Source: Owenia fusiformis
Lineage: Eukaryota > Annelida > Polychaeta > Sabellida > Oweniidae
Assembly: GCA_903813345.2 (NCBI GenBank)
Contig: CAIIXF020000011.1
Coordinates: 27,706,166 to 27,770,165, forward strand
Direction: 5' to 3'
DNA length: 64,000 nt
The position numbers and the translations under genes were made by a program. This document shows, piece by piece, positions 24,901 through 49,118 of the stretch; the stretch's first letter is position 1, and every line of letters starts with the position of its first letter. Under the pieces are notes generated by a model. The model did not search any database. It worked only from the letters and a program-made list of their open reading frames with translations, and had not been told where the DNA came from.

Positions 24901-27900
24901 GGGGTTTATTGATTAAGATTTCTATTTATTTATTAAGTTATATCACTTCAGTATACATAAGATTTGTGACATATGTTTTGGGACATTTGAAATCACTGTT
25001 AATACAATGCTGTTGATTCGTATTATTTAACATGCACATGTGCAAAGGGGTTCTATGAATATAATCTCATAATGTTCATAAATGTTTATGATCAAATGGA
25101 TCTGAGAAGGATGGATTAAGATGATTGAAGTAATCGGGCATGTTATTAATAGTATTCATTATACAGAAAACCTAGTGGGAGAATTTGATCAAGGTTCTGA
25201 TAGAAATTCATCATAATTAGCTAGACCCATTATATTTTATTTACTGGTACATGCACTTCAAATTAATTAAGAAAGGATTTAAAAAATGTAGACTTACAGA
25301 TGGTTCGGGAAGAGAATAATCATGCAGTGATCTCTGGGAACCTGGAAGCATACATGTAGAAGGTGATCAGTAGTCTCACAAAAGTCTGGGAACATTTGAA
25401 AGGATTAGTCGACACTTTGGTTGTGAGATCCAATCATGAAGTAGAGTGTACATGAAAATACATTAATCTTGATATGTGAACTACTGAGGCTGCATTCTTC
25501 CTTATGATGCTGTCACGTTAGATTATCTGTCCTACATGTAAAAGACACAGTGGTACACCTACCTATTGGATGTAATATGCTGTCTCTTTGCTCATGGTGT
25601 AAGAAAAAAGTCGAGGTGCACAATGAGGACACCCTGCAGTACATGGAAGCTAAGAGATGTAGGGATCAAGACATAAACATTGACAGACTAAAAAATCATG
25701 TTATTGGAAACAAAAAGCTGAATAATGGTGTGGCGGTTAATCTCGATAAGAATGACAATGAAGATAAACATACTGCTAGAGATAAAACAAAGCAGCTAAA
25801 GGCAGAGAATCAGTCAAGTTCTAAATCAGAGAATAGACAAACTGATTATGTACCTAAAGATACGGATAACATTGACACTAATGGTGATACTAATAATGAT
25901 CCTGAGACTGATGATCACAATCAAAGTAAAGATTCAGATATCAGTGACATTTATAATGGTGCCAAAAGTGAACACAACAAATCAATCAATAAGTCTGGTC
26001 ATCAGGATTTTCAAGTATTTGACGAGATACAAAACAATGAACCTGATAAAGACAATAATTCAGATGACCCTAGTGATGCCTTTGACCCTGATAGCCATGA
26101 TTATGACAACACACATTGGAATCTCAAGGATTATAGGACTGATGAATGTGATTCAGATGTTGATGATGATAGAACACATTCAGATTCGGAAGATTATGAG
26201 ACCCAAAATGTTGAATTGCAAGGTGAAATCAATTTTTGGGACCATGGCAGAAAAGCATGTTATACTATGCACATCCATTAATTTTACCATTTCATCATAC
26301 CTTTATATGTATTAATATAAAAACCTCAATTTTTTTTCTCCAAGAGCCTTCTGTTAAGTGAGTTATATCAGGCAGTCACCTTCATCCTCTCCGTACCATG
26401 TATAAAAATTACCTTGTTATGTAACATCATACTGATTTTAATTTTTCTGTGTTTACAGGTTTAAAATGCTTACCAGACCAGGATGACTCAATCCTAGTAA
26501 AGAGGCACACATTAGCAGCCCTTGTTCACTCCGATAGGTGAGTATTTTACGTTGAGCATTTTTATGTCACCACCAAAAGTGTTATATTCACCAACCTTTT
26601 TGTGGAATAAGAGGAGGGGAAACTCCAAATACTACACTTTGATTTGCTGCTTAAATCGATTTAGGGGTCCGTACACCTTCTTTTATCTTGATGTGAAATA
26701 AGAAGCTATGATTTGTTAAACCCGCTTCAAATGAACATAATATTATTCGAAGCATATTTTGATGCCGCCATTGATGATATCATTTGTCAATTTTGACGAA
26801 TCAAAGATATATGTCTTCTCAATGCAGGTTTACAGTATAAGCGTATGTCATCTTTGAACTTTGGGATTTTTCCCCCTCTTGCATAAATACAACTTAACAG
26901 AGCTCAATATGCAGTCAAAGAGAGAGAGGGTGGGGTTGAATCATATCAACTGTCATGTCTCAAGTATAAAAATAGTTTATTTTCTCATATACATTTTGAT
27001 CTTGTTTTATGGACGATATAGTCTCATTGGCTTGTAATTTGGCTTATTAGTCCTGTTCTGCCTCTATATGTAAAACGTGACTTTCCTCTATTAAAAGATG
27101 GCACTGTTTTTCATAGTCTCCCAACCACATTTGTATTCATTAAAAGTTAAATTAGATATTTAGTATTTTGGCACATTCTCACCAATTTCCTTCTTTGCAT
27201 ATGATACAATATAATGGTTTTATTTTTGCAATATGGATAATGAACCATTATTTTCAAGTGTAGTAGTGTCTTAGAGCATGAAATAATTATTCTTAGAGAA
27301 ACAGCAACATTTTAAGCTAATCAATACCTCTTATATACGTGACTAACCATGTTTCAAATTCTGAAATAAAAAAGTGCATTTAAATTTGGTACAATTTAAA
27401 AGCAAAAAATAATCGCAAAAAACTATCACACCATACATAGTGTATTGATAAAATCTATAAAACCTGTACTTTCAAGATTTTTACAGTTTATTTCATTGAT
27501 AAATGTGAACTTTTTGTAGTATTTGACATGAAATTATTCCAACTGTAAAATGACATGACTCTTTTCATATCCTTCAACTGCGTCCTTGACAACTTTATAT
27601 GATTCCTTACGGGGCCCCTGGGAACATAGCACGAAGACTCAAAACAAAAAGTATAGAAAATATGAGATAAAATTGAACTTGATATTTACTTTTCAGCTAG
27701 CAATTTATTGTAATAAAGTTGTTGAATAATTTGTAAGTTGTAGACTCAACATGGATGTCTCTGATAGTCTTGTTTTGAAACATAAATTCTTTAAATCAGT
27801 ATAATGCAAAGCAACTAGAAAACCCAACCACATATGGTGTATTTATATCAATTGAGCCAGTTTTTGTAAATGTGCACATTACTGTAGTTATTATACCATT

Positions 27901-30900
27901 GCCATTATAAACAGAATTCTGATGAGGACCCCGAGTTAATAAACAGGAAATTAAAAAAATTATTTCCTTAATGCTAATATGAGATAATGATATACAAAAC
28001 GGGGTGATTTTATTTCCCTATTAAAATATTAATTAGTTCACTTTATCTCTGTCTGACATCTAATTTGATATATACTCGAACAATGTCATGGTGATTCGTC
28101 TTATTTATTTGGCAATCAGACCTAATTAGAGCCATCCATATTGTCGTGATGAAGAAGAAAACAATCTGCAGTGTATTTGTACATATTGGTTCAGTCTTGG
28201 TGCAAAAACCACTATGCAGTCTGGAGGGGGTAAAGGGATGAAATAGAAGGTGTGGGGGGTAGTGCTCGTATGGGGTATAGGGGGGGGGTAAAGGTTGAAA
28301 GTAATATTGAAAGAGAATGTTGTTTTCTGGATCGATCAGGGGGTAGGGGTAGAGTTAGGGGTAGGGTATCCAGCTTTAAATCAAAACTTCATCATCATTT
28401 CTAGGGATAATTTGTGTATGCTGTCATAGAAACTGAAACAATATGTCATCGTGATGCCATTGGCAGATGTGAGACATCCAGTAGCTTGCATGTTCCTAGT
28501 ACAGGTTGTCCATGGGACACACTCTTCTATTATATTGTGATACATTGTAGTGTGACTGATACATACTCGATGAGACATCTGCTCATCTCAGAGACAATAG
28601 CACACAAAGAGCCACTGCCAGTTTAAATGACCACTAAATCATCCCCCATTCAAAAGTTTGATCATTGTGTAGATAAGCATACAGGTCAATCATTCATACC
28701 CACCTGTAGCTATATTCATATATCAGTACAGGTAAAGCATTGGTACATGTCTACGGTAGTCTTTGTTTTGAAATTCAACAGATGGGAAATACTGTCTCTA
28801 GCATATAGATTTGCACTTCAAGTTACCAAAAGTCAGATAGTCAAGAAAATCGAATCTAAATTTAGAAAATATTTTCGAAGATTGCAGAAACTGGAGTATC
28901 AAGGAAGGAGGAACGCGCTTTTGGAATAAAAAAAGCTGGTCATTTTAACCATCAATATAATTTGATTCAGTCGAGGAATGATTGCTTGGAGACAAAACAG
29001 CAGTTAAAAATCTGGAGAATTTATAAACTCGTAGCAAACAAAACTAAAAGACTATAAGAATTAAAGTCAGCAAGAGATAATCTTTTAACTTAACAAATGC
29101 CACTCGAGAAAACACTTTATTTAAAAAACAAACATTTTCTGAATTCCATTTGCACTATTAAAAATATGCTATAAATTTTATAACTGTAGATAGCTACCTA
29201 GGACTTCGTACCAAAGTATATTTGGCCTAACCATATGGACCTGAGGCATTCTGCATGTCAATGTAAACCGGAATGAATCAATCATGGCTAAAAACAAAAA
29301 TGTTATAAATTTTGTTGAAAATATTCAACAGTGTTTAATGTAGTGATTGGGAAAATCAAAAACTGAGAAAGCTTTTATTGATGCTTAGTTGTCACATTTG
29401 AAGCTGTTATCATCGCATGTTAAGAATTAATTTTGGGGCGTTCATCCTTAACATGCAACTAACTCCCCATGTACTGTGCGTGTAATATGTGTCACGGTTG
29501 GCAGATATACCTACTGGAGGCAATCTGATTAACTCATTATTTTAAGACAACTCGTGTTCATAAATGCAACATGTACATACATTTTAAGGACTAACATTTA
29601 AGAAGCAAGATGCTCAGATTCTAGTTTACATTTTTACAAAAAAATCACTAATGAGAAAATTACAAAAACATACTGGAGAGCATCTGGTTAGGAACCATAC
29701 CTGGGAACATACAGAGAAACCCCAGAGAGAATTTACAAAAAATTAACTAAAAGAAACAAAAGATGCTTCTGCAACAACATGGATCTCTTAACAAGGCTAA
29801 TTGAAGAGCCAATCATACTGTCTGCGCTCAGAGGTGTAAGAAACTTTTAAATTAGAAATATCGTAATTGGAAGCACTAATTCAAACATTTGTGAGAATCA
29901 TCATAGAACACTTGACATGTATATTTTAAATGCAGCATTGAATACAATATAGCGGCAAGGATATAAATAGGAAATGCAAATATTAAGATGCAGTCAAAAG
30001 TGGACCTGAATTCGATATACAAATAAACCAATTCCGAACTTTGACATTTCACTGAGAAAGAATTGAACTAGTGACATTTCAATTGAAAAGTTCAATCACG
30101 GAATTTTGTTTTCATTTGGTATGAAGGATAAATATTTAAAGTCTGAATTGTTTGACATTGAAACTTGATGGATGCCTTCTATGTTCTGTCAACCCTGTAT
30201 TATTGTGCAATCAAATAAACGACTAGACTAAGTTTAATTTAACGTGATGGGCTGAGAAAACAGACTTAAAGCTGGAGAGGAAGCAGTCGAAGCAAGATAT
30301 GGATATATGTTTTGTTAACTCAGAAAGTTTTTGCATAAAGGTTCCTGAATTGCATCACATCGTAATTTAATAACAAATGATTGTTCATTTCAAATGGGAA
30401 AAAGGAGTGTTGTAACAATGCCTGAAGGATTTTCTAATCAAGCAATAACCGCAAGCATTCATCGTTAACTGATAATAACATTATTTCATATTTCGTAGAA
30501 CACTATATGAATTATAGTAATTTTAATTAAACTCTAATTCCCAAAAGGAATTTTTAGTATATTGCACAACAGAATTTTATGATTGTAATACCATCAAAGT
30601 GAAGGCTGATCTCATTAAGGACTTCAATGTTAATGACATTAATGACTCAATTAATAAAAAATAGTAAATTTGGTTAAAACTCTTACCACATGAAGGTTTA
30701 ATTTTTGCTAACTTAACCAGATGGGCACTACTTTGAATACCTTAAGTTAAGGTATATGACGGAAGTACACACATGTTTGTTGAATCATAGCAAACTAAGC
30801 CTATTTGAATAAGCCTTATAGGCTGAGAGCACCGTAGTTTGAGCAAGAGCTTATATTTGATATAGACCATTTTCAATGGGACCTTTAACTTGCCTACTCC

Positions 30901-33900
30901 TATGAAGTGTGGTTTAAACTATGAATGTTTTGGAATGCTGATTTGTTTAAAGGACTCAGAGAGTACACAAAAAAGACATGAATAGGCAAACGGAACTAAA
31001 CTAGCGTGAATATAGCAATGGTATTTTTATATGATGGGAACTCAATTTAAACAGGATTTACATATCACTTAAATAAGGTTGACAGTGAGAGATAAGATCG
31101 TAGTAAAAGTAATGGAAACCCCACAGTTATTGCCAATGATAAACTAGCTTCCCTAATAAACTAGACGTGGGAGTTGAACCAAATTATTTAACATGACACA
31201 ACGAGCTATCAGAAGACGTGAGATACAGAAGTACCACGAAGGATTATCATACAGTAAATCTCTCCCGTATATCAAGCTCTACGCTTTAAAGCGTCCTGCA
31301 GTATTCCCTGAATGGATTAACAATCAAGCGGTTGCATTGAAAAGGCCGGGTTCTACACCAAATATCAACCAAGGAGACTTTCTAGATGCCTACATGAACG
31401 GGGTCACTCCGACCAAAAGTGATAAGTACATCATAGAAAAAATTAACTCAGATTATTTTAACAGCTCTTCTCCTGATAAGAAATATTTTGTGAAAAAAAT
31501 CGAGGAGAATGGACGTGTGAGAGGTCGACGTGACACAAGATTGAAACGCTCACTTAGTGAACTCGATCTGGATACAAAGAATAACAATCATTTGGATTTA
31601 CCAGTTTTAAAGGATCTCCCTAAACCTAATGGTGTAATCAAAATGGAATCTAATAAGCAAAGAAGTGCTAATGTTGTTGAGGAAGATGACCATGAATTGA
31701 TGTTTGTTGAAGGAAAAGGATTTGTAAAACAATTAAAACATCCAACTCCAAATGGAAATGTTAAAAATACAAGAGAGTTGAAATCTGACACTGAACTAAT
31801 GGAAGATGATTTTGTGACATTCCACGAACATTCTGTATTAAATGACTCTTTGAATGGTAACACTGGAGAGATTCAAAAGGACATGACGCAAAGCAATGAT
31901 AATAAAAATCAACAAAATGGTGGACTCCATATAAGCAACACTTCAAATCTTAACAAAAGGATATCTCAGAATAACACAAATGACCTCAAACCAAATTCAT
32001 ATCAAAATGGGTCAGTTGTAATAAAGGACAATGACACTGTTGAAGGTGAAGATGATCCAAAAATATACCCAAGTGTGTTAAGCATAACCACAACAGCCGC
32101 AGACTCACAAACAAGTCAGGGAGATCTCAGAAATAGACTTATGAAATATTTCGGTGATTTAACCAAAAAGAGTAAAATGAGTCGGACAAAAGGACGGAAA
32201 CCGAGTGTTGAAATCAAGTGCAATGTTAATATTAAACCCTCCAGCAATGGAAGTGTTGTTATAAATTCAAGTAAAACAACTGATGCAATTAACTGTACCT
32301 CACCTTTACAAGGCAATGAATCTGTATCACTTAATACCAGCACAGATGAGAATGAGAACTTGAATGAATCTACTGCCAGTGACGATGCTAGTGTTGGTGT
32401 TGTCAGTCCTTGTGATGTCATAATAGAATTACCAGGATTAAAACGAAGTAGAAGTAGTGATAGTGTATTAGATAAAACACAGAGGGATAAACCACAGAGG
32501 TTCAGTGACTATTTCAAACCAATCAAAATTCACCAAAAATTCACATCAAAGCCACCGAGAAATCTCGCTCATATAGCTGCGTTAGAATATCAGAATATCC
32601 CTCTGGATGTGGATAATGATGTGAATAATAGAAAACAGAAAGCAAACAAACGCCTGTCCGGATTATTTAACATGGATAGACCAAAGGAGGAACCCGCTCC
32701 AGTGGACCCAGCCATTGGGGAGGTTAGGGAACTCAGAATTGAGAGTGATGAGGACATTAACAAAAAGGCAAAGTCAAAGAAGAATTCTCAGGATGCCGTT
32801 CCTGTACAAGCATTGAGGAAGTTACGAAAACAAAAAAGCGTAGATGATGCCACCAAAAATTCTGTCTCAACACCCAATGTTCTCGATGAAACATTTAATA
32901 AGTTTAAGCAGCATAGTTATTTCCAGCAGATTCCAAAAGACACTAAAAAGGATAAATACAGTTCTAAATCAGTCCCTAAAAATTTAGGGCAGATATTTAA
33001 ATCTCCAAAGAGTGAACGAAAGGATATAAAGAGAGAAAAGGAAAAAGAGAAAAAGAATGACAAGAAAAATAGAGGACGTCGGAAAACGATCTTAAACCCA
33101 ATCTTTTTTTCATCCAATAAATCGCCACCACCCAAACCAAAGAAGGTCCGATCAACATCCGCTGATAGAATGGCATCATACAGGATATTGCGGGATGACT
33201 GTAAAGACAAACCAGTCTCAATTTCCTTTCTTTCTGACTCTGGTATTACATCACCAAAAGCGAGGTTGGTATTATTGTCATAATATAGAAAGTTTTGTCT
33301 GACTTAAAAAGAATATCCAGTTTTTCAAAAAAGGGAATGAATTTTAAAAAGGTTCATGATTGAAAATAGTTGCTTTACCAGACACACAGTTATAATTCTA
33401 AATAACGCCTAGAGAGATGGGAGGGGGTTACCTTATATATATGTTATATGGCAAAGCTTAAAAAATATCACACATAAAAACAATAGCTCTAGAAATCAGC
33501 CAATATGATGAGTCATAATCTGATAATTTCATATAAAAGTTCAGCCCGACATACATCAAAAATATATAAATTTTATCTTGCATAATTGAATATATTGGAA
33601 ATTCATGTCGACTGCAGCTGGTGATATTGTATTTATTGTGTCAGTTTTAGTGTAGAATATATAAAAGATATAAAGCTACACAAGCAGGCACATTGTACGA
33701 AGCATTTAACATACTGATATATTCTGTGGTTGCTTTGTGATGTTATATTCGGTTAGAAACATGACTGTCTTTCACTCTAACATTTAACTTGTTACAGTCA
33801 TCATGGGTGTAGGCAGTCGAGGCAGCAAAATTTGCCTCTCTTAATCAGCTTTCTTTCCTCGCATAATTTGAGATCCTGGCTACGCCCCTGGTCATTCTAT

Positions 33901-36900
33901 ACTTTACCCTGCTAACAAATTTGTTCCCTAAGCACATGTCAACAGTAAGCACCTATATACTCTGATAAAGAGTATCTGTAAGTTGAAAAGGGGTGCTAGA
34001 TGTTACTTTTTTGCTTTCTGAATATCGCCCTTTGTATTTTACATATGTATGAGTACAAGATGTTTAAAGTGTGGATGGACCCCCCCCCTTCCCCCACACA
34101 CACACACACATCTGCCTTGTAATGAAACACCAGTTGAAAAGGATTCACATGTTTTAAATAATATGAATGTGTCACCATTGTTGACGCATAGTACATATAT
34201 GTAGTCTACATTCCTAACAATGGGACATCATAGTACATGCTGGATTATCTCCAACTAAACTGAATAATGCTTTATTGCTCATCAAATAAATACATGTAAT
34301 GTAGCGTATAATACGTTGTTAGCCCTTTATATTGTTACTGAATTTTTTGTCATGTGAAGTTTGTGTTAAGATTTTCATTTTCAAATACTGCATATACTAG
34401 TATACATTCAGTTTATGAAACTAAGCAAATAAACCTGAAAATGGCAGAGAACTGAACATTTGCCGATGAAATAACAAATAAACTGCATGAAATATGGGTT
34501 CTTTCTATATATGTACATGTACATGTATAACTCTCTTTCAATTGTTGTATATAGTGATTATTCATGAACATAATTTCAGTTATCACTATATTGGTAATAA
34601 AAAATGAGATATGGGGAAAGTGATAATTAATCAAGTCTCATTCTTGATCAATGGATTCTGTATATTCCAATATTAAAATTTTTTCTTGATCAACAGTTAT
34701 AATTTGAGGTTAAGTCCAATATACAAACACCTACATATAACTGAATACTGTTTTTTTGCTATGATATTTCTTTCACAAGTTATAGCACATGCTGACACAT
34801 TTTCTTCAATTTAGTATAACATTGAGCAATATGAAAAGAAAAACACATTTAAACTTTACAGTTCAAAAACTGAACCTTTCGAAATAGAACGCATTGTTTA
34901 AATGCCATTTTAATTTATAGTGCCGGTATTTCCCATGGCAATATATAGTCTCAATACAGACTTTTGATGTCGAATGAATAGCTTGGTTTTTAAGGTTGTT
35001 TGATAGCCTATATATGGTTGAATGTGATGTACACGGCACAGTTAAATAGTTGTATTAAATTCCAGTTTTAAATAAGGGCTACTGGTTCATGGAGTCAAAG
35101 TTTAATAAAACATCCCCTTAAAACATTTTCAAAGAGGAATGCAATTTCGATTCATGACAAGAATCATATTGCACTTTTTCAACATCTCAGAAATATTGAA
35201 TTTTAACTCCATAATAGATATTTTGGGTTTTTAAAAGAAGTAAGCATCTATTCCAAAATTATTGATTTATTTAGTATTCAATTCTCTAAATAAACATATA
35301 AGTGTCAAATACTGCCACTACGTCCCCAATAATGATTGTAATCACAGAATTTTGATGATTCGTGGATTTATCTTTTGTATAGGTTACCCACATTTGCCCA
35401 GGGTAAAGCTCTTTAAGTTGACCAGACACCAGTGGCATTTCCTTCAATGTTTGGATAATGTCTTATAAGGACAATGCCTGACCTCTCTCTCTAAAAGCAC
35501 CTTGTTGAAATAATTGTGTTCAAGTATTTTTAATAGGTCTAGCCTCTTAAATTGTATGTTAAATGTCTAATGTTAGCAGAGGCCAATAATTCTTTAAGCC
35601 TAGGCCCTTCACAATTTATGTACTGTATACATATGAATTCATTTTGCATATTAAGAAGTGTATTTCCATTTTAAAATGTCGTTTTGTGTACTTAACAATG
35701 CAAATGTATTTATTTTGTATTTAATTGATAATTCTGTATAAAATTAATGTATATTCAAGCAATTATATAATAACATCCACTTTCATGTAGATATCTAACT
35801 TTCTAACCAGGTGTAGACAAATTGACAAAATAATATGTATTTTTCCTATTAGGAATAACATAACATTTACATTTATAGCTGTATTACCAGGTGTAGGTTC
35901 TCTAATTTAATAATGTTCTGTATTTTCAGTGCTTATGCTCCCAGAACAGTGGTTTTACAGAAAGGCAAGAATGGCTTTGGATTTGTACTGAGGGGAGCAA
36001 AATGTAAGTTTATCAGACTTGAATACTCTTCTCCCATCTATATGTTCTATATAGATTTAATTTAGAGTAAGGGAATTCAACTGATGTTCTGTTCTATAGG
36101 GTTCGGTTTTTGTTTTGAAATGTTACCATTTGTGCACTCCTCATTGCCTATGTTACTGTAAAGGAAGATGCTTCTTGATGTTTTACCAATCCTTTTTTAA
36201 ATGAAATAGTAATTAAACTCTACTTGTGTGTGTATAAAGCTGTTAAAATAATGATGGCAAAAAGCTCCATGAAAAGTGTAAAATCAGAGACTCATAAATT
36301 GGTGTGCTTAGAATGACATGATAGAGAAATTTAAAATTTGATAACATAATTTGACATTTAACCCAATAAACATATTTCCAGCCAAAGACCCATCAACAAG
36401 GATACTAGACTTCCAGCCAACCACAGACTACCCGGCCTTACAGTACCTTGACCGTGTTGACCCTGGAGGTATGGCGGAGAAAGCTGGTCTACAGGCTGGG
36501 GATTTCCTACTGGAGGTAAGCCAGAAGACTATTGGATTATTGTGCTGAAAAATGAATATCTTTAATTCTTTCAATTGACATTTGGTTTTTCAGCCCCATA
36601 GACTTCGCGCAAACCCTGTACATCTGAACACTGTGTAGACCGAACACCTCCATCCCAATATGAACACTTTCTCAGTCCCAATTATATATATAACATTGAA
36701 ATTTGAACACCTACAGTTGATTTTTATGTCACCAGCGAGTTATTGCCATCTTTTTTGCGGCATCACCATCTGGAACAAATGAACTCACTTTTATAATTAT
36801 CCCATCGAACGAAGTTCGGAGGGATATAGGGAACGCCTCCGTCCGTCCGTCCGTACGTACGTCCGTACGTACGTCCGTACGTACGTCCGTCCGTCCGTCC

Positions 36901-39900
36901 GTCCGTCCGTCTGTCCGTCCGTCCGGGCAATAACTCAAATACCGTTGGCCCGATTTTGTTCATATTTTGTACACATATACCCTATGGGGGTAGAAGTTCT
37001 GCTCGAAAGCCGATTTTCAAAATGGCCGCTCATTTCAAAATGGCGGCCATTTTAGTGCCGATTTTACAGTAATTTAGGTGTAATATGTAAAACTGTAAAA
37101 GCAATATGTTTTAAATGTAAAAAAATTATAAAGGACATTAATAATGCTACAAATGAAGATATTAAAGAAGCACATGGCAGCCATCTTGAAAAATGGCGGC
37201 CTTTACTCGTCATTTTACGATTTTTGCTTTAACTCAAAAAATAGTGGAGCGATTTTGTTCATATTTGGTATGTGAATACTATAAGCATTGCACACTGTCT
37301 AAAGACACTTTTGGTAGAAGGCGGCCATTTTTCAAAATGGCCGCCATTTTAACATATTTTACTATAACTCAAAAAGTAGTGGAGCGATTTTGTTCATATT
37401 TGGTATGTGAATACTATAAGCATGGCACACTGTCCTATGACACTTTTGGTAGAAGGCGGCCATTTTGAAAAAAAATTGAAAAATGGCTGCCATTTTAACG
37501 TATTTTACTATAACTCGAAAAGTAGTGGAGCGATTTTGTTCATATTTGGTATGTGAATACTTTAAGCATGGCACACTGTCTTATGACACTTTTGGTAGAA
37601 GGCGGCCATTTTGAAAATTTTTTTGAAAAATGGCGGCCATTTTAATGTATTTTACTATAACTCGAAAAGTAGTGGAGTGATTTTGTTCATATTTGGTATG
37701 TGAATACTATAAGCATGGCACACTGTCTATTTCTAATGACACTTTTGGTAGACAGTGGCCATTTTGAAAAATGGCCGCCATTTTAACGTATTTTACTATA
37801 ACTCGAAAAGTAGTGGAGCGATTTTGTTCATATTTGATATGTGAATACTTTAAGCATGGCACATTGTCTAATAAAACTTTGGGGAGTAGTCGGCCATTTT
37901 GAAAAATGGCCACCATTTTTATGTGTGTTATTTTACAAGTACGTCTGTGATTTTTCAAAAATTTTAGAGGTGGCTACTTAAAAGCATATTATTTCTTCTG
38001 ATGACAACTTGGCTAGTGAGCAACCATTTTGAAAGTGGTGGCCTTTCTGGTGTGTTGTTTTATGATATTTGTTATTCGTTTGTAAAAATGCCAGCCATTT
38101 CTGTTCGATGGGATTCGCTACGCTTTGGCGTTGCCGTTGTTCTGGTTACAACCAGGCAATTCTTTGTTTGTATTTTAGAATATAAAAAAGATTTGTGGAT
38201 TATACTCAGCTTTTCACTACTATGTTTCTAGATTAATGGTGAGAATGTGATCAGCGCAACACATGAGCATACCGTGAGGCTGATTATGAGATCGGATGAT
38301 ACGCTAGCTTTGAGAGTTGTCACGGTGGAGAACCCATTTCGTAGTGACCGTGAGAGCAGCCTGGATAGCCGCGATAGTAGTGTCACAGGGAGCATATCCG
38401 GGAGCATATCAGGCTCGGCTACCCTAGAGAGACCACAAAAAAACAGAGGTAGGCATCAGTTGAATGAAACCAAAAACTATTGTAGACTGAGACTGGAATT
38501 ATTTAAGCGGCTCTTGCGTCTACAAATAACAACCAAACTTAGGATGATCTAGTTATTACGATATGTAAATAAGGGTGAAAAATAAGGTATAAGGTGGCTG
38601 GTTATTTGCATTGTGTGTGAATTACTGTAGTTATAACTGTGATGGGTACTATGGAGATATTGCATGTTGCTATGGTTTCTATTCCAGCGCCAATGCCACC
38701 TATACGTAGTACGGGTACTAAACTGTCTGCTGGTCGGGCACGTGCCAAATCTATGGTAGATGGCCTAACAGCGTTAGGTAGGTTCATATACCACCTCTAT
38801 TCCTCTGCATGTGATTCAAAACATGGTGTTATTGCATGGATAATAGAGAAAAGAGAGGAATGAGCAATCAAAACATATACCAGGATGGATGTTATATATG
38901 ATGTAGTTAAAGATTATATAATCTGTGCATGATTAGTGGGATTTTGGTTTGAAAGACCATTATTAGCTAAGTTAGGGTTAAACATGTTTATGGAGAGATA
39001 TTTCTTCCTCACGTGTTTCTAAACATTTTATTAAATCTTGTAGAAAATGGGAATTGGATATGATAACTAACTCATTGTTTTTTCTATTTCAGAGACACTA
39101 GAAAGCCTCGACAAGACCTTAGATGAATATGCCTCATCTGAGGCAAACTCTGCGACAAGCTCTTCAGAATCAGATGCCAAAACAGCATCCATACGCAGAC
39201 GTAACCCGCATCTGAGAGTGTCAACTGTAGAACTTCAAGACATTTTCGCACGTCAAGATGGTGCATATCCAATACCAGCTGAAAACCCCAAAGTTCCAAA
39301 AATGAAACCTTCCGAGGTTAAGGCACGTAATGCTCGTAAGAAAAGCAATGGTATTATAAATGGGAGTTTGACACGCTCAAAGAGTAGCAGTACACCTAAT
39401 TTAGTTGAGAATGGTACAATGAGTCTCAGTAGGAACTTTAGCCAGGAACGGCTGGATTATGACGCTTATGCCGATATTGCCCCATATGCAACACCCCAGT
39501 TGCATCGACAGATGCCCCCTAGGGGTCCCCCACAGGAAGACTCAGGGGTGTCTATGGGTTCTCATCATGACCCTAGTGATGTTCAAGGCCAAGGTGCCCA
39601 TGGTGGTGCGGACTTTAATAATCAGATCCATATTGCTAAATATGCCATGGTATCTGGTGACGGCAGTAAACAACACAGACGTCAAACTTCTAATAGTTCA
39701 ACAGATTCTGGGGTGCCGTCTCTGCCCCCTGCTGATGGTGACTACCCCCCTCCCCCAAGTTTTGCCCCTGCTCTGGGTATGGTGATCCCAGCACCCCCTG
39801 AACACCCCCCACCCTTACCGCCACCAACAAAACCCAAGGGGGAAGTGGTAAAAATCACAACCAAGGACCAACATAATATTTATGCAAATGTGTCAGCTGA

Positions 39901-42835
39901 CATTCAGAAAAAGATAGCTACCGTCACCAGGAGTGATAGTACGAACTATGAATCAAGTTTTCGACCAGGTATCGAGGCCAAGTTAAGCACTAAACCTAAA
40001 CTTGCCCCGAAAACCTACTCCCAACATAGACTCAGTCAGCCAGCAATACCCGAAAATATTTCCATAAAATCACCTGATATTAAGGAAAATGATCAGGGAA
40101 AAGTGGACATTAGAAAAATTCGTGAAAACTTTGAACAAGGTGATGCCTCGCAAGGTGATAAACATTCAGTGAAGTTTGCAGATGATCATATATATGAAAG
40201 TGCGGCACAATTTATGAATGATCACCCCAATGCCTCGTTGTTGGTCACGGCAGATGTACATGCATCAGCTCCATCTAGTGGGGAACCACGTAAACTTCCC
40301 CGAACAAAACTTGATAACGAACAACCGATATATGCAACCACGATAAATAAAGATAAAACAGTGAGTGTAAAAACAGACAATGTTTATAATACAAAACTGC
40401 CTGAAAAACAAGAGCCTTCTAAGACTGTATCTAACACCAGAACGGGATCAGATAGCTCATACTTTGAGCCTGATCCAGATTATGATGACCCAGCAAATGT
40501 TATTAAAGTAACGCAGCAATCAACGAAGGAGTACTGGCGTGAGAAAGAGGTTACAAAGAGCCTAAAAGTAGTGCCTGCCACTCAGGGACATGATAAGACC
40601 CCTGAGGTGAATACCAAACCATTAGTGCATCGACATAGCGAACCAAATATTCTCTCCCCGATACATTCTCCAACAGTGCAAGAAAAGCCACGGGAGATGC
40701 AACGAAGACCTAGCGTTGAGCGCCAAGTATCTCAGAGCTCTTACATTCCTCCCCCACCCCCACCAATCAGTAATGAGATCTTAGAGAAACATCACCAGAA
40801 GGAGCAGAGACAACGAGAAAGTGCACCTCCCCCACCCCCACCCCCTAGGAGCCAGAGTGACAGCCACTTACAAGGCAGAGACACAGGGGGTGCTCAACCA
40901 ATGCCATTACAGGGCTCAGAATTTGCTAATGCCATCAAGCTAGCTGCACTTGCCAGAGAGAAGAAACAAACTGATGGTGCGCAAGACACTACTACATCAA
41001 AACCTCTTCCCAAAGGGGTCAAACAGCTGACCCCCAAGAATGACAACCATTCTGCTTTAATGGCTGCAGTCGCAAAAAGAAAGTCCATCGTTGAGTCCTC
41101 AGATATGGAGTCCTACGCTAACAAAATTGAACGAAAATTAAGCAGAGTGCATAAGATCAGAATGGGAGTCGGAAATCCAGTTGAGCCAAAGAAAACAGAC
41201 ACTGAGCCTAAAACTACAGCCCCTGTTAAATTTACTCCCACTGTAAAATCTACCCCTGTTAAGACAGAATCTACACCCGCACAGAAAAAACAAGCACCTA
41301 AAACTCCTCCCAAGATAACTACAACTGTAAAGCCAAACAGTGCCATCCCCAACCCTAAAAGCCCTACCCTTTTACCTGATAAACCTATGCAAATACATGA
41401 TAAAGACACTGTACTAACATCAAAAATTGCTCAAAAACCCATTACGATTGAGGAGAAAGCAGCTCCAGAAGTTATAGCAGTTGTGAAGGAAACTGCGGTG
41501 TCTCCTGTGAAGAAAGAAGCAGAGAGTTTCATGGCAAAAGCTGAACAGGCGCGACTTGATTGGCTAGCGAGACAGAGTGGCGGGAAAACTAATAAAGCAA
41601 TGGATTCCAAACAAGAACAAAACAACCAAGGTATCAATATTAAAGCTCCAGAGGACACTCCTTCAACACCATCTATTAAAGATAAACTAAACCAATTTGA
41701 AAAAACTGGTGGTAATAAAAGTGAACAATTGAAAGATAAGAAAAGTGAAATGACACTTCCATTGGTAGAGCTAAAGGGTGTTACTGTTGAACAGACATCT
41801 ACAGAAACACCAACTGATAATAAAGATACTACAGATGAAATGCCCAAATTGGTGTCGGCTAGGGCAAAAATGTTTGAGACATCCCCACCTTCAACATCCC
41901 CTCGGCCACCAACCAAACCAGGAAAACTCCCCAATAATTCCGCATTGCCATTTTATATTCCTCCCCCTGTGGTGGAATCAGAGGTTGATATGTATGCTGA
42001 TATTGATGTGCCCCCTCCACCATCCATAGTACCCCCTCCCCCACCCCCTGCAGCCTTCAGAAATACCCCTGAGCGAGAACTTTCCCCAGGGTTTTCAATT
42101 AAACCACCAGAACTTAATGGGGGCTCTGTGAGGGCGAGGTCATTGAGTCAAAGGTCAAGTGGAAGCTCAGAAGAAAGTGTCGGGTATATCCCCCCTCCCC
42201 CACTGTTCCTAAATGAAGACATGGCAGATGATAACATCAGTTACGGTTCATCTATCTCATCAATGTCAACATATTCCAGTGAACGAAGCGACGGCTCAAC
42301 AGATATCCCGAAATATCTCACAAATAGAAACACGGATCATAAACAGAATCATTACATGACGGGTCCAGGTAGTAACAATAAAAGTGGCAATTATAGCTTT
42401 TTACATAAACAAGGTGTTGCGGCACCTAAACTTGAAAATATGTATGAAGAGGTGGGTGTTGCACCACCCCCACCTCAGTTTGGTGCACAGAATGGTGACA
42501 ATAATGACAATATTTATGAAGAGCTGCCATGTACTAAAACACACACTATAATCCCCCCTCCAACGCGGCATATGGCCTCAACTAACACTATGGGAACCCC
42601 TAAAATGGGTCGCCCATTCCGAACAAAGCCATTAAAAACATGGACTAACAGTGATGTCACGGACTGGCTTGAGAGCTTGTTTCTATCTGAATATAAAAAC
42701 AATTTTATCGAGAAACAAATTGATGGATTTAAGCTAAGTAGCATGGAGAAAGATGATTTCCTACAGTGTGGTGTATTAAGAGTGGGGCATAGGATGAACA
42801 TTGAAAGATCATTGAAGAAACTTCTACAAAAATAG
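3728..42835 (+). CDS. Shank: SHANK multidomain postsynaptic scaffold (18 exons, spliced)
   Basis: Shank proteins are master scaffolds beneath the postsynaptic membrane. They link receptor-associated proteins to Homer and actin regulators. I joined 18 exons with GT/AG borders: 6072 nt, 2023 aa, no frame break. Residues: 50-150 SPN (FERM-like) with the conserved GRAGKFLDEER; 156-385 ankyrin repeats with LLDLGASPNYKDSRGLTPLY; 513-572 SH3; 610-705 PDZ with GFGF at 620-623 and the helix-B His at about 685; 780-1950 low-complexity, proline-rich; 1958-2023 SAM (TWTNSDVTDWLESL). The ATG at 3728 follows an in-frame TAA directly (3725-3727). Arg56 in YIRIS lines up with the Ras/Rap-contacting Arg of vertebrate SHANK3. 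Length is similar to vertebrate SHANK1 and well above fly Shank as far as I recall. Only one Shank locus is seen, as expected outside vertebrates. Exon choice rests on homology and phase; minor isoforms are not excluded. Confidence 0.97.
4977..5082. mobile_element. TGTCACCACC MITE, copy 1
   Basis: The left end is TGTCACCACC and the right end GGTGTTGACA, an imperfect inverted pair about 106 bp apart. Between them are CGGTGTTCAGCA and GGCATTCGGCAT stretches. A closely matching copy lies at 14007-14144. Isolated TGTCACCACC-like ends also occur near 7530, 26568 and 36728. Confidence 0.65.
5380..5945. promoter_or_regulatory. Possible internal promoter (CpG-richer patch)
   Basis: CpG is denser here than in the surrounding intron. 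At 5893-5940 there is a tight group of motifs: CCAATATGGCG (CCAAT and YY1-like), TCACGTGA (E-box/USF type) and CTTCCGGAA (ETS type). This could be an alternative promoter within Shank or for an unseen transcript. The call rests on motifs alone and is weak. Confidence 0.3.
5572..5703 (+). other. Doubtful 43-codon ORF with signal-like start
   Basis: The ATG at 5572 opens a short ORF starting MAPSKVFFFVIALLVSIPSL, a positive residue then a hydrophobic stretch like a signal peptide, followed by a polar tail and a TGA at 5701-5703. It lies inside the CpG-richer patch. The length is within chance expectation and no family is recognised. Confidence 0.15.
6530..6601 (+). CDS. Shank: Shank exon 2 (residues 66-89)
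   Basis: It has acceptor TTGTTTCAG and donor GTTAGT, phase 0 to 0, 72 nt. It encodes KCLQFQLDDLVWAAKARILG and four more residues, the second part of the SPN domain, with the KCLxF and VWxAKxRIL patterns of animal Shanks. Confidence 0.95.
6602..7807 (+). other. Shank intron 2
   Basis: AT-rich. A partial TGTCACCACC-family end is near 7530. I see no coding potential or other structured repeat. Confidence 0.8.
7808..7933 (+). CDS. Shank: Shank exon 3 (residues 90-131)
   Basis: Acceptor CTTTTAG, donor GTAAGA, phase 0 to 0, 126 nt. It contains NYGLYCPPMNGRAGKFLDEE, the most conserved block of the Shank N-terminus, followed by RPLRDYP. Confidence 0.97.
8650..9125. repeat. 24-bp minisatellite
   Basis: Units of 24 bp begin TCACAGAT and alternate CTTAAAGTCTAAAATG with AATAAAGTTTTTGGTG, giving a 48-bp dimer, with about 19 units. 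Because 24 is a multiple of three, both strands stay open for over 130 codons. The two ORFs are artefacts of the repeat. Confidence 0.9.
10012..10160. repeat. GGTGTTCC-type repeat, second copy
   Basis: It shares GTACCTCTAAAAAGTGTTTC and GAGGTGTTCCATTT with the segment at 803-990 and ends in TACAGGTTTCACTGT. Confidence 0.6.
11999..12070 (+). CDS. Shank: Shank exon 4 (residues 132-155)
   Basis: Acceptor TGTTTCAG, donor GTAAAG, phase 0 to 0, 72 nt. It encodes FKYKRRVYKLMQINQTKLKK and LHTK, the junction between SPN and ankyrin repeats (FxYKRRVY and KLHTKANL patterns). Confidence 0.96.
12071..13770 (+). other. Shank intron 4
   Basis: It contains the second TAGTCTTGC MITE at 12096-12190 just after the donor, and a poly-C run near 13697. 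Several short ORFs have no recognisable content. Confidence 0.8.
12096..12190. mobile_element. TAGTCTTGC MITE, copy 2
   Basis: TAGTCTTGCTTCAAGTCTCT at the left faces AGAGACTTGACGCAATATTA at the right, a good inverted pair about 95 bp apart. It lies 25 bp downstream of the exon 4 donor. Confidence 0.6.
13771..13879 (+). CDS. Shank: Shank exon 5 (residues 156-191)
   Basis: Acceptor CTGTTTCCAG, donor GTAAGT, phase 0 to 1, 109 nt. It encodes the start of the ankyrin region, with KLLTKGLDPNYHDPDSG matching the Shank signature GLDPN(F/Y)HDPDSGE. Confidence 0.97.
13880..14623 (+). other. Shank intron 5
   Basis: It carries a TGTCACCACC MITE (14007-14144) and, at its 3' end, two extra copies of the start of exon 6 (see the repeat at 14381-14707). 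Confidence 0.85.
14007..14144. mobile_element. TGTCACCACC MITE, copy 2
   Basis: TGTCACCACC and GGTGGTGACA form a perfect 10-bp inverted pair 138 bp apart. The interior matches the copy at 4977-5082 (TGGCATCT, CAGTTGG, GGTGTTTGATGTTCAG). Confidence 0.7.
14381..14707 (+). repeat. 109-bp tandem triplication of intron end plus exon 6 start
   Basis: Three nearly identical 109-bp units start at 14381, 14490 and 14599 with TCTAATG. Each holds a pyrimidine tract, an acceptor (exon starts at 14406, 14515, 14624) and the first codons of exon 6 up to ATAGACTT. Only the third continues into AGGAGCAAAG and a full exon. In units 1 and 2 read-through meets TAA right after ATAGACTTC. Near-identity means a recent event or an assembly artefact. 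Confidence 0.92.
14624..14775 (+). CDS. Shank: Shank exon 6 (residues 192-242)
   Basis: Acceptor TATTTTTAG, donor GTGAGT, phase 1 to 0, 152 nt. It encodes ankyrin sequence with SGGAHIDFRSKENLSPMHKA, matching the vertebrate GGAHLDFRT block. I chose the third of three tandem acceptors because only it yields a complete ankyrin repeat. A cryptic donor CTG|GTGAGT lies inside each copy. Confidence 0.93.
14776..16603 (+). other. Shank intron 6
   Basis: AT-rich intron of 1.8 kb. I see no clear repeat with inverted ends and no coding potential. Confidence 0.8.
16604..16771 (+). CDS. Shank: Shank exon 7 (residues 243-298)
   Basis: Acceptor TTCTTTGCAG, donor GTAAGA, phase 0 to 0, 168 nt. It contains LLDLGASPNYKDSRGLTPLY and AELLLHDHA, two of the best conserved ankyrin blocks in Shank proteins. 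Confidence 0.98.
16772..17713 (+). other. Shank intron 7
   Basis: It contains a 184-bp element at 16966-17149. The rest is AT-rich with nothing recognised. Confidence 0.8.
16966..17149. mobile_element. CAGTAAAAC MITE-like repeat
   Basis: CAGTAAAACCTG and a facing CCAGTTTTACTG are the ends of a 184-bp segment. It includes TCTGAACACC and TATGAACACTT motifs shared with 36600-36715. Confidence 0.55.
17714..17830 (+). CDS. Shank: Shank exon 8 (residues 299-337)
   Basis: Acceptor GTTTCTAG, donor GTTAGT, phase 0 to 0, 117 nt. It encodes ACRFGRVQHLEHLLFYG and SGNTPLHVCAVNNQ, a typical ankyrin repeat with the Shank block RFGxVQHLEHLLFYG. Confidence 0.98.
17891..18106. mobile_element. ACCGTATT MITE, 216 bp
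   Basis: TACCGTATTCTCTCTAATGA faces TTATTAGAGATAATACGGTA across 216 bp. TA at each end suggests a TA target duplication, as in Tc1/mariner-type MITEs. The family resembles CCGTATT repeats common in marine invertebrates; the class is an inference. Confidence 0.7.
18410..18683. mobile_element. Hairpin element with 108-bp arms
   Basis: Two 108-bp arms, 18410-18517 and 18576-18683, are inverted copies with few mismatches, around a 58-bp loop. Shared blocks include CAAAACAATAG, CAACTGCCGAAATAAAAG and TTTTAACATGAAAACATTTT. The structure fits a fold-back MITE and would form a stable intron RNA hairpin. Confidence 0.85.
18818..18962 (+). CDS. Shank: Shank exon 9 (residues 338-385)
   Basis: Acceptor ATATTCCAG, donor GTAAGT, phase 0 to 1, 145 nt. 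It encodes ESCARLLMFRGCDRDVLNY and the QVAIIAGNTELADLI block, the last ankyrin repeat. Confidence 0.98.
19225..19542 (+). CDS. Shank: Shank exon 10 (residues 386-491, ANK-SH3 linker)
   Basis: Acceptor TTCTTTCAG, donor GTAGGA, phase 1 to 1, 318 nt. It starts with VPFR, as in vertebrate Shank after the ankyrin block, then a basic, Ser/Gly-rich linker (KRRYSVATMSRTRSDPRMS, SGGGGGLTGPGG). The KRRYS and RTRSDP sites look like basophilic kinase targets. No domain is expected here. Confidence 0.93.
19631..20146. mobile_element. TACCGGATTT element, 516 bp
   Basis: TACCGGATTTACTCGCATAT at the left faces ATATGCAAGAAAATCCGGTA at the right. Inside are two copies of a CCCATGGGCGTATAAG...TTCGATTTTTGGCCCA block (about 19,707 and 20,064) and a duplicated GAACTTAATGTTGAAACAAAGTAA-like stretch. 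GTA flanks both sides, a possible 3-bp target duplication. There is no transposase, so it is non-autonomous. Confidence 0.7.
21000..21129. mobile_element. Palindromic MITE with TA flanks
   Basis: CTGGATGATCAGGAGCTGGA and TCCAGCTCCTGATCATCCAG are perfect inverted ends. Imperfect pairing continues to a small loop, giving arms of about 60 bp. TA dinucleotides at 21000-21001 and 21128-21129 fit a TA target duplication. Confidence 0.85.
21170..21262. mobile_element. Truncated CAGGCCCGTAGCC repeat
   Basis: It begins CAGGCCCGTAGCCAGGATTT and matches the reverse complement of the right half of the complete copy at 59282-59480 (GGGTTCACTTTTGACA, TTGGCC). The other end is missing. Confidence 0.75.
21661..21819 (+). 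CDS. Shank: Shank exon 11 (residues 492-544, first half of SH3)
   Basis: Acceptor ATGCTAG, donor GTGCTG (weak), phase 1 to 1, 159 nt. It encodes PKKRLYEAVPGRVFVCVKDY and ELMLKKGDFVE, matching vertebrate PKRKLYSAVPGRKF at the SH3 start. Without splicing the frame would continue into AT-rich intron, so the weak donor is supported by the exact join to exon 12. Confidence 0.95.
21820..23673 (+). other. Shank intron 11
   Basis: This intron is AT-rich and splits the SH3 domain. I see no repeat with clear ends and no coding content. Confidence 0.8.
23674..23775 (+). CDS. Shank: Shank exon 12 (residues 545-578, second half of SH3)
   Basis: Acceptor TGATTTTCAG, donor GTACAT, phase 1 to 1, 102 nt. 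It encodes VLSVGEQGFLEGRSQGYEGW and FPPYCVEEVKM, the SH3 end. The vertebrate GFWEG is GFLEG here, so one usual aromatic ligand-groove residue is missing. Confidence 0.96.
24280..24372. mobile_element. TAGTCTTGC MITE, copy 3
   Basis: TTATGCCTCAAGACCC and GGGTCTTGAAGCATGACTA are inverted ends about 93 bp apart, with an inner poly-C run. Confidence 0.6.
25577..26222 (+). CDS. Shank: Candidate alternative first or cassette exon of Shank, acidic
   Basis: An open frame runs 25508-26281 without interruption. From the first ATG (25577) to a donor at CAAG|GTGAAA (exon end 26222) it is 646 nt, ending in phase 1. That is the phase needed by exon 13, only 236 bp downstream. The 215 residues are rich in Asp, Asn, Ser and Glu (for example DNIDTNGDTNNDPETDDHN) after a short Cys-containing head (MLSLCSWCKKKVE). 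No domain is recognised. As a first exon it would give a 1660-aa form with PDZ, proline-rich region and SAM but no ankyrin or SH3. Alternatively ACACAG at 25545-25550 could be an acceptor for a 672-nt cassette exon (25551-26222), phase 1 to 1 and divisible by three, though its pyrimidine tract is poor. A chance ORF of this length in AT-rich DNA is unlikely. An independent nested gene is also possible. Confidence 0.55.
26459..26537 (+). CDS. Shank: Shank exon 13 (residues 579-604, SH3-PDZ linker)
   Basis: Acceptor GTGTTTACAG, donor GTGAGT, phase 1 to 2, 79 nt. It encodes GLKCLPDQDDSILVKRHTLA and ALVHSD, the linker before the PDZ. It corresponds in place to the vertebrate stretch leading to VLQKRDHEGFGF. 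Confidence 0.85.
26538..31192 (+). other. Shank intron 13, first part
   Basis: AT-rich. A G-rich stretch lies at 28223-28370 with a likely G-quadruplex, and a TGTCACCACC-like repeat end at 26568. ORFs here are short with no recognisable domain. The last few hundred bases would include the 5'-UTR of the alternative exon at 31193, but I see no clear TATA box. Confidence 0.75.
28339..28368 (+). other. Potential G-quadruplex
   Basis: Four G-runs (GGGGG, GGGG, GGGG, GGG) are separated by TA, TAGAGTTA and TA loops, meeting the usual G4 pattern on the coding strand. Another G-rich run is at 28233-28300. Confidence 0.6.
31193..33264 (+). CDS. Shank: Candidate alternative first exon of Shank, basic, 690 aa
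   Basis: This 2.1-kb open frame starts at an ATG with an in-frame TGA 18 bp upstream (31175-31177) and has no AG between them, so an upstream acceptor cannot feed this ATG. Read to GCGAG|GTTGGT it is 2072 nt, phase 2, exactly what the PDZ exon at 35930 needs (AG+T gives Ser). The frame closes 20 nt past that donor. The product would be 2109 aa: a novel 690-residue head, then PDZ, proline-rich region and SAM. The head is Ser/Asn/Lys-rich and largely disordered, with repeated basic phospho-site motifs (LKRSLSELDLD, LKRSRSSDSVLD, KRLSGLF), a KRPGSTPNI block, a Lys/Glu run (KREKEKEKKNDKKN) and a PPPKPKKVRSTSADR SH3-ligand-like end. No known domain is seen. Vertebrate Shank genes are known to use internal promoters giving ankyrin-less forms. 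A nested single-exon gene is the alternative. The donor is weak. Confidence 0.65.
33265..35929 (+). other. Shank intron 13, last part
   Basis: AT-rich. It holds a fragment of a CCTGGCTACGCCCCTG repeat near 33880, a C-run and (CA)n at 34081-34110, and an ATGTACATGTACATGTA run at 34512-34528. Nothing coding is recognised. Confidence 0.75.
35930..36003 (+). CDS. Shank: Shank exon 14 (residues 605-629, PDZ start)
   Basis: Acceptor GTATTTTCAG, donor GTAAGT, phase 2 to 1, 74 nt. It encodes RTVVLQKGKNGFGFVLRGAK. GFGF (620-623) is the carboxylate-binding loop that receives C-terminal ligands. Three different upstream exons could splice here. Confidence 0.98.
36004..36381 (+). other. Shank intron 14
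   Basis: Short AT-rich intron with no repeat or coding content seen. Confidence 0.85.
36382..36515 (+). CDS. Shank: Shank exon 15 (residues 630-674, PDZ core)
   Basis: Acceptor ATATTTCCAG, donor GTAAGC, phase 1 to 0, 134 nt. It encodes YPALQYLDRVDPGGMAEKAG and LQAGDFLLE, the usual PDZ core (ALQYLxxVDxxGxAxKAGLxxGDFLxE). Confidence 0.98.
36516..38231 (+). other. Shank intron 15, mostly one composite repeat
   Basis: The intron splits the PDZ. It contains a TGTCACC-like end near 36728, a TCTGAACAC repeat (36600-36715), and from 36801 to 38112 a composite element with (CGTC/CGTA)n followed by a 135-147-bp array. Confidence 0.85.
36801..38112. mobile_element. CCCATCGAAC element with CGTC microsatellite and tandem array
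   Basis: CCCATCGAAC at 36801-36810 faces GTTCGATGGG at 38103-38112, a perfect 10-bp inverted pair. Just inside the left end comes GAAGTTCGGAGGGATATAG, then a (CGTC)n/(CGTA)n run (36837-36925). Five tandem units of 135-147 bp follow (TAGTGGAGCGATTTTG at 37242, 37377, 37523, 37670, 37811), each with a GGCGGCCATTTT motif. No transposase is present. The class is unknown. Confidence 0.75.
38232..38448 (+). CDS. Shank: Shank exon 16 (residues 675-746, PDZ end)
   Basis: Acceptor TGTTTCTAG, donor GTAGGC, phase 0 to 1, 217 nt. INGENVISATHEHTVRLIMR holds the helix-B His (about 685) that defines class I PDZ binding. A Ser/Asp/Arg-rich stretch follows (DRESSLDSRDSS). Confidence 0.97.
38688..38777 (+). 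CDS. Shank: Shank exon 17 (residues 747-776)
   Basis: Acceptor TCTATTCCAG, donor GTAGGT, phase 1 to 1, 90 nt. It encodes APMPPIRSTGTKLSAGRARA and KSMVDGLTAL, matching the vertebrate APPPPKRAPSTTLTLRSKSM region after the PDZ. Confidence 0.95.
38778..39092 (+). other. Shank intron 17
   Basis: Short AT-rich intron, no feature seen. Confidence 0.85.
39093..42835 (+). CDS. Shank: Shank exon 18 (residues 777-2023, proline-rich region and SAM)
   Basis: Acceptor TTCTATTTCAG, phase 1, one 3743-nt terminal exon ending in TAG. The central 1180 residues are disordered, Pro/Ser/Lys-rich with several P5-P7 runs. Four PPxxF motifs fit the Homer EVH1 ligand: PPPSF (996-1000), PPAAF (1761-1765), PPPLF (1811-1815), PPPQF (1902-1906). 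PPLPPPTKPKGE resembles the cortactin-type SH3 ligand. Many hydrophobic-Tyr motifs occur (NIYANV, HIYESA, PIYATT, DMYADI, NMYEEV, NIYEEL). The last 66 residues form the SAM domain (TWTNSDVTDWLESLFL, FLQCGVLRVGHRMNIE), which polymerises Shank into sheets. A giant proline-rich exon before SAM is typical of the family. Confidence 0.98.
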
Positions 42836-46296: not shown

Positions 46297-46848
46297 TTAC
46301 TTCTTGGCTGGTTTCTTTGCTGCTGCCTTCTTCTTGGGAGATTTCTTTGCAGCTGGCTTCTTTGGTTTGGCAGCCTTCTTGGTTGGAGTCTTCTTAACTG
46401 CCTTCTTGGCTGCTGGCTTCTTTGCAGCTTTCTTGGGTGTTTTTGGTTTCTTTGCTGCCTTCTTTGGGGTCTTTACTTTCTTCTCTTTCTTGGCCACTGG
46501 TTTCTTTGCCTTGGGTTTCTTGGCAGCTGGTTTCTTCTTCACTACCTTGACCTTCTTTGGCTTCTCTACCTTGCCAATTTTGAAAGAGCCAGATGCACCA
46601 GTTCCTTTCGTTTGCTTGAGAGCACCATTCTTCACACCAGCACGAAGAGCCATCTTCAGGTGAGAGTTGACAGCTGCATCACCACCAAGGTCCTTGAAGT
46701 TGGACTGGATGTATTTCAGGATTGCAACTCGGCTGGATCCTGTACGATCTTTCAATGAAGTAATCGCTTGCTGGATCATCTCGCTGTATTTGGGATGGTT
46801 GGAAACCTTCTTTGGCTTTGCTGCCTTCTTTGCTGCTGTGTCTGCCAT
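46297..46848 (-). CDS. H1: Histone H1, copy A (183 aa)
   Basis: Linker histone that binds nucleosomal DNA at entry and exit and compacts chromatin. Residues 1-16 are a Lys/Ala-rich head; 17-92 form the winged-helix globular domain (HPKYSEMIQQAIT, GSSRVAILKYIQ, GALKQTKGTGASGSFKIGK); 93-183 are a Lys/Ala/Pro tail with TPKKAAKK and SPKK-type repeats. It is a single exon. The stem-loop behind it and TATA box before it indicate S-phase type expression. Differs from copies B and C at a handful of positions (TPTKKAAK here, TPSKKAAK there). Confidence 0.97.
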   Translation of the reverse strand: MADTAAKKAAKPKKVSNHPKYSEMIQQAITSLKDRTGSSRVAILKYIQSNFKDLGGDAAVNSHLKMALRAGVKNGALKQTKGTGASGSFKIGKVEKPKKVKVVKKKPAAKKPKAKKPVAKKEKKVKTPKKAAKKPKTPKKAAKKPAAKKAVKKTPTKKAAKPKKPAAKKSPKKKAAAKKPAKK

Positions 46849-46929
46849 TGTTATGTGTAGGTCGAATGTCTCCGAAGTACTCTGATCAGATAAAACGAAC
46901 GTATGAAACTATGACGAAGGGTTTGTAGA

Positions 46930-46935
46930 TTTATA
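46930..46935 (-). promoter_or_regulatory. TATA box of H1 copy A
   Basis: TATAAA on the minus strand, 82 bp before the ATG, next to a conserved GCGCGGACGTTAG block and a CCGGAAGT (ETS-like) site upstream. The same block precedes copies B and C. Confidence 0.75.
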
Positions 46936-48852: not shown

Positions 48853-48856
48853 CCGG

Positions 48857-49021
48857 TGTGAAAGAAATGATGGTCCCCCAGGGATTATGGTCCCTTTTCT
48901 TAACGGCCCTTACTGGCCCTGATTGCGTATAAGATAATGAGGGAAAGAGTTGTATTTAGGTCACCATATAAATCAATGGAGAGTAGGACCATAATTTGAT
49001 AGGACCTCCTACCCCTTTACA
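48857..49021. mobile_element. 165-bp MITE with CCGG flanks
   Basis: TGTGAAAG and CTTTACA are inverted ends. CCGG on each side (48853-48856 and 49022-49025) is a 4-bp target duplication. The matching place between units B and C (54177-54180) has one CCGG and no insert, so it is a clean empty site. Confidence 0.85.
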
Positions 49022-49072
49022 CCGGAATTGACACATATTCATAAACCTAATTCTCTTTTGTTAATAATGGGT

Positions 49073-49088: not shown

Positions 49089-49118
49089 TTTGGGTTTGTG
49101 TTGGTTGAAAGCTAGAGT

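Follow-up and report, generated by a model that had tools for sequence, protein, structure and literature searches.

Excitatory synapses are organized around Shank, their master scaffold, and the isoforms of mammalian Shank are of importance in autism. In the annelid Owenia fusiformis, the introns of a Shank gene contain two long open reading frames that lie directly upstream of exons with which they could be spliced in frame, and this locus raises the question of whether the gene has alternative first coding exons that would replace the ankyrin half of the protein with unrelated heads. The DNA analyzed is a stretch of 64,000 nucleotides (assembly GCA_903813345.2, contig CAIIXF020000011.1, forward-strand positions 27,706,166 to 27,770,165), here called the window. 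All coordinates refer to the window, and features are on the plus strand unless stated otherwise.

Organization of the Shank gene

The plus-strand Shank gene is described by an 18-exon model with consistent splice phases. Exons 1–13 (3806–26537) encode the SPN domain, the ankyrin repeats and a putative SH3 domain; exon 1 has only an approximate start, and the open frame continues for 26 codons upstream of it. The spliced product of exons 1–9 and the start of exon 10 matches residues 21–373 of Shank3 in PDB entry 6kyk (E 5.3e-133), corresponding to SPN and ankyrin. The putative SH3 domain lies in exons 11 and 12; the half-domain in exon 11, scanned alone, matched SH3_2 with an E value of 0.0028 and 17.8 bits, below the cut-off of 21.8. 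Exon 13 (26459–26537), placed by the splice chain, links SH3 to PDZ; it is entered in phase 1 and left in phase 2, and its alignment with Shank1 and Shank3 PDZ constructs is limited to its last residues.

Exons 14–18 (35930–42835) would be common to all of the forms considered here and encode the PDZ domain, the proline-rich region and the SAM domain. The PDZ domain is encoded by exons 14–16; its best PDB match is Shank1 6ywz (E 1.2e-26), the top 10 of its 29 PDB matches are PDZ domains of Shank1 or Shank3, and the structure of the Shank3 N-terminal PDZ extension, 5izu, is among the matches listed. The SAM domain (SAM_1, E 1.1e-15) is at the end of exon 18, and an AATAAA signal lies 90 nt downstream of the stop codon. 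Exon 14 (35930–36003), where the PDZ domain begins according to the splice model and the PDZ match, is alone among the 18 exons in being entered in phase 2, and it is separated from exon 13 by an intron of 9,392 nt.

A basic open reading frame in intron 13

An earlier note on this DNA, made from the sequence, had claimed that this 9.4-kb intron contains a 2.1-kb open reading frame with an in-frame stop just before its ATG, a phase-2 GT donor matching exon 14 with closure of the frame shortly afterwards, and a predicted product of 2109 residues. Each of these claims is borne out. The open frame (ORF 2) extends stop to stop from 31178 to 33283 (701 codons), a TGA read directly from the sequence occupies 31175–31177, and the ATG is at 31193. 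The candidate first coding exon, head 2 (31193–33264), is 690 codons plus 2 nt long and ends in phase 2 at a donor, GAG/GTTGGT (GTTGGT at 33265–33270), that fits exon 14. Codon 691 is split AG/T after 33264, and the frame closes with a TAA whose last base is 33283, 19 nt further on. By a position weight matrix (PWM) trained on just 17 donors, all from this gene, the donor scores 9.9, which places it in the top 0.5% of the 3588 plus-strand GTs. It is the highest of the 97 GTs in ORF 2, narrowly so (9.8 for the next, at 32722), and the third from last of them. When head 2 is joined to exon 14 the frame is open from 31193 through SAM to the stop codon, giving 2109 amino acids and no internal stop.

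The head had also been described as basic and rich in phosphorylation sites. It is basic overall (pI 9.58, net charge +32), but residues 151–420 are acidic, with a net charge of -8. The phosphorylation claim proved weak: the strict motif R-x-x-S/T occurs 9 times versus 6.3 in shuffles (P 0.15), and the loose motif [RK]-x-x-S/T 27 times versus 19.2 (P 0.025, with no correction for the 13 patterns). With 13 patterns scanned in each head, this loose basophilic motif in head 2 is the only one with P below 0.05, again before correction, and the phosphorylation-site content of head 2 barely exceeds what its composition predicts.

An acidic open reading frame in intron 12

Scanning of the remaining open reading frames brought up a second one, ORF 1, that was absent from the earlier note. 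It is in intron 12, is stop-free from 25508 to 26281 (257 codons), and has its first ATG at 25577. The corresponding candidate exon, head 1 (25577–26222), is 215 codons plus 1 nt long, is acidic (pI 4.49), and ends in phase 1. Its best donor, AAG/GTGAAA after 26222, scores 6.9 by the PWM (runner-up 6.6 at 25658), is the second from last of 35 GTs, and fits the phase of exon 13. Splicing to exon 13 at 26459 would remove a predicted intron of 236 nt, and the joined form has 1660 amino acids and no internal stop. We note that a start-stop, ATGTAA, at 25570–25575 immediately precedes the ATG of head 1; were it part of the mRNA, it could damp head 1 translation.

Coding signal and specificity of the fit

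At the stop rate of the introns, the number of stop-free runs of these lengths expected in the six frames of 64 kb is 2.5e-18 for ORF 2 and 1.1e-4 for ORF 1. The longest run in 2000 base shuffles of ORF 2 was 170 codons, and a chance origin of its open frame is excluded. Both open frames have a strong three-base periodicity, with period-3 ratios of 13.3 for ORF 2, where 281 intron windows of equal length reach at most 6.8, and 24.0 for ORF 1, where 296 such windows reach at most 15.4. Codon log-odds, trained on the canonical Shank exons, are +0.15 per codon for ORF 2 (best intron window -0.18) and +0.17 for ORF 1 (best intron window -0.04). They peak in the proper frame for both; the other two forward frames of ORF 2 score -0.08 and -0.10. 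Taken separately, the two halves of ORF 2 are each scored as coding in that frame, and its first 1000 nt are scored as coding too. Synonymous codon choice does not separate ORF 1 or ORF 2 from intron in this gene, which means that the codon score mostly reflects amino-acid composition.

A phase match taken by itself has a one-in-three chance for each of the two frames. As a control we used all 42 plus-strand open reading frames of at least 60 amino acids that lie between 3806 and 39093 and have no overlap with canonical exons, and asked which have their best donor at a score of at least 6, no more than 90 nt from the end of the frame and with a phase matching the next exon. Three of the 42 do: ORF 1 and ORF 2, which are the two longest of the set, and a 60-residue frame at 4722–4904. 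This last is thus the one such case among the remaining 40, three of which overlap ORF 1 or ORF 2 in other frames.

Promoter, acceptor and polyadenylation signals

ORF 2 is unlikely to be included in its entirety as an internal exon, because no AG dinucleotide occurs in 31178–31192 and the acceptors upstream are weak, with none above 0.4 between 30793 and the start of ORF 2; we rejected this option. Head 1 likewise has no in-phase acceptor scoring above -0.7.

Upstream ATGs are numerous, with 11 in the 400 nt that precede head 2 and another 11 in the 300 nt that precede head 1, and no TATAWA box is found in 30500–31193. A patch of raised CpG around the start of head 2 (31001–31600, observed/expected 0.90) is a possible, weak promoter mark; the 400-base bin at 31151 ranks 27th among 705 overlapping bins of the gene. 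No such patch is present at head 1. The many upstream ATGs, the lack of TATAWA and the weakness of the CpG signal count against a simple promoter just upstream of the heads. A separate CpG-rich patch in intron 1 of the gene (5201–5951) reaches an observed/expected value of 1.26 and exceeds the one at head 2; it could represent an additional promoter or a repeat of recent origin.

Weighing of alternative explanations

Given these open frames, their coding signal, their donors and phases and their in-frame joins, it is probable that the Shank gene uses ORF 1 and ORF 2 as alternative first coding exons, which would yield forms that lack the ankyrin repeats and SH3. The proposal in the earlier note of an alternative N-terminus agrees with the frame and phase of ORF 2, with the position of its donor and with its coding signal, although this N-terminus is not alone, there being one at head 1 too.

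Four other explanations deserve consideration. Part of ORF 2 might be an internal cassette exon, spliced from exon 13 to an acceptor inside ORF 2 and then to exon 14, so that full-length Shank would acquire a long linker between SH3 and PDZ. ORF 2 contains in-phase acceptors at 32380 (score 4.2), 32272 (3.8), 32407 (3.4), 32392 (1.9) and 31465 (0.6), and the true acceptor of exon 14 itself scores 4.2 when left out of training, with some other true acceptors lower still; a part-length exon of this kind is therefore conceivable. Such scores are common, however, with about 5% of the 3454 plus-strand AGs reaching 4.2 and 5–7% reaching values from 3.4 to 4.2, and the strongest acceptor within ORF 2 (32927, 8.6) is out of phase. 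A cassette would also leave unexplained why the first 1000 nt of ORF 2 look like coding sequence, and we regard it as unlikely. It is quite unlikely, too, that ORF 2 constitutes a gene of its own, consisting of one exon inside the Shank intron and ending at the TAA at 33283. It does possess its own ATG and stop, and its link to Shank in the sequence consists of the donor and the phase alone; yet the best donor in ORF 2 lies 19 nt before the end of its stop codon in the sole phase that fits the next exon, there is no AATAAA or ATTAAA in the first kilobase after the stop (the nearest is at 34285), and the same arrangement is seen a second time at head 1.

Both frames could instead be unexpressed relics of a mobile element or a decayed gene, as might be suggested by the tandem arrays in the introns of this gene and by the lack of a known domain in either frame. 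We consider this improbable: a Pfam search found no transposon domain in ORF 1 or ORF 2, the repeats seen in 30400–33400 amount to two weak 25-nt pairs, with inverted repeats absent, and the frame of ORF 2 is intact over 701 codons with strong periodicity. Least probable, and by our reckoning very much so, is the possibility that head 1 is joined not to exon 13 but to part of ORF 2, forming one combined long head. Acceptors of matching phase are available in ORF 2 at 32436 (5.9) and 31605 (3.9), but exon 13 is closer, is in phase, would require an intron of only 236 nt and has a stronger acceptor (9.2 when left out of training). Alternative first coding exons thus remain the preferred explanation of both ORF 1 and ORF 2.

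Relatives and predicted structure of the heads

Head 2 matches no Pfam family at E values up to 1 and no PDB sequence at E values up to 10, and the Pfam matches of head 1 are all sub-threshold, the best being zf-FLZ (E 0.16). Contamination as a source of the heads was also considered: searches of viral contigs confirmed none of 42 pattern matches for head 2 and none of 18 for head 1, and a search of prokaryote contigs confirmed none of 198 for head 2; these collections are without animal genomes by design. We also considered an origin of the heads from another part of Shank or from each other and rejected it, with no BLASTP match at E values up to 1 other than to self. AlphaFold2 models of the two heads from single sequences are poor, with mean pLDDT values of 38.8 and 48.0, and this low confidence fits disorder of the heads without being proof of it.

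Predicted Shank forms and their relation to known isoforms

If the heads are first coding exons, transcription starting inside intron 12 would give an acidic head of 215 residues spliced to exon 13, and transcription starting inside intron 13 would give a basic head of 690 residues spliced directly to exon 14. Both forms (1660 and 2109 aa) would drop SPN, ankyrin and SH3 and keep PDZ, the proline-rich region and SAM; it is from the joins and coding signal described above that we infer the promoters, splicing, translation and function that this requires. The exchange of SPN, ankyrin and SH3 for head 2 that the earlier note proposed is still the best fit, with head 2 joined to the first PDZ exon, except that exon 13 would be dropped as well. 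A scaffold without SPN and ankyrin would presumably lose the partners of those domains, and the choice of promoter would then decide which set of N-terminal partners Shank carries.

The alternative heads of mammalian SHANK2 are short, whereas the Owenia candidate exons encode 215 and 690 residues of opposite charge. Transcription of SHANK2 is driven by three promoters, each with its own translation start (SHANK2E; ProSAP1A, with exon 1b; and ProSAP1, with exon 1c), and one promoter form begins with SH3 and another with PDZ (PMC3276563). Head 2 resembles the start of the SHANK2 PDZ form in its position just before the PDZ domain (PMC3276563), while the head 1 form differs in beginning after SH3, at the linker exon. 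In mouse Shank3, at least five intragenic promoters give rise to different sets of domains, but the available text of that report gives the forms as combinations of five known domains and mentions no long unique head (PMC4113141). The statement in the earlier note that vertebrate Shank genes have internal promoters giving short forms is in line with both SHANK2 (PMC3276563) and Shank3 (PMC4113141). Ankyrin-less forms made from internal promoters are established in mammals, and what would be new in Owenia is therefore the length and content of the heads. A comparative paper made use of Shank intron positions, and the word 'isoform' is absent from its main text (PMC2824662); among the open-licence matches listed in our literature search, no title or abstract opening named a long alternative N-terminus of an invertebrate Shank.

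The fate of exon 13 is a further point of difference between the two forms. In Shank3, residues 542–563 before the PDZ domain form a hairpin that, with PDZ, binds SAPAP tightly (PMC6337207). The head 1 form would keep exon 13 and the head 2 form would skip it, so that the position of residues 542–563, where Shank3 has its N-terminal PDZ extension, would be occupied by exon 13 in one form and by the end of head 2 in the other. The homology of exon 13, unlike its position, cannot be traced back past its last few residues, and sequence comparison found none with the SAPAP-binding strand of Shank3; a shared role is thus suggested by position. The PDZ match is nearly equal when the end of head 2 replaces exon 13 (95.3 versus 96.5 bits). 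Because exon 13 is kept with head 1 and removed with head 2, the forms may differ in SAPAP/GKAP binding.

A broader proposal, which we put forward tentatively, is that promoter choice in a lophotrochozoan Shank gene swaps SPN, ankyrin and SH3 for either an acidic or a basic disordered head. It is conceivable, with a similar degree of doubt, that the exon next to PDZ, which may tune SAPAP/GKAP binding, is kept or removed at the same time, giving scaffolds of opposite charge with different partners. If an invertebrate Shank gene indeed has long alternative heads at the corresponding place, this would suggest that loss of the ankyrin half is an old or repeatedly chosen way of diversifying the scaffold, and the locus would constitute a natural experiment on the purpose of the Shank N-terminal half and of the PDZ extension.

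Other features of the window

Several repeats lie within the canonical part of the Shank gene. At 14380–14708 a 109-bp tandem triplication (98% alike) repeats the acceptor of ankyrin exon 6 together with the beginning of that exon; only the last copy continues into the full exon, and use of either of the first two acceptors would lead to a stop right after HIDF. Within the PDZ-coding part, intron 15 contains a TCCG microsatellite followed by a 146-bp satellite of 4.9 copies (36838–37907). Further tandem arrays are found at 8659–9123 (24/48-bp units), 57320–57731 (23-bp) and 63112–63970 (29-bp, 29.7 copies). An open reading frame in the array at 8659–9123 matches Pfam RMI1_N_N (1.4e-07), which we take to be spurious. 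A tRNA scan of the window gave no hits.

Downstream of Shank, the minus strand of 46297–54852 contains three complete genes for linker histone H1, all of them with a histone 3' stem-loop, together with a partial H1-like open reading frame at 50590–51042 that has no stem-loop match. None of the seven open reading frames of this region scanned against Pfam matches a core histone, and the cluster resembles the H1-only clusters of Mytilus (PMC4106214).
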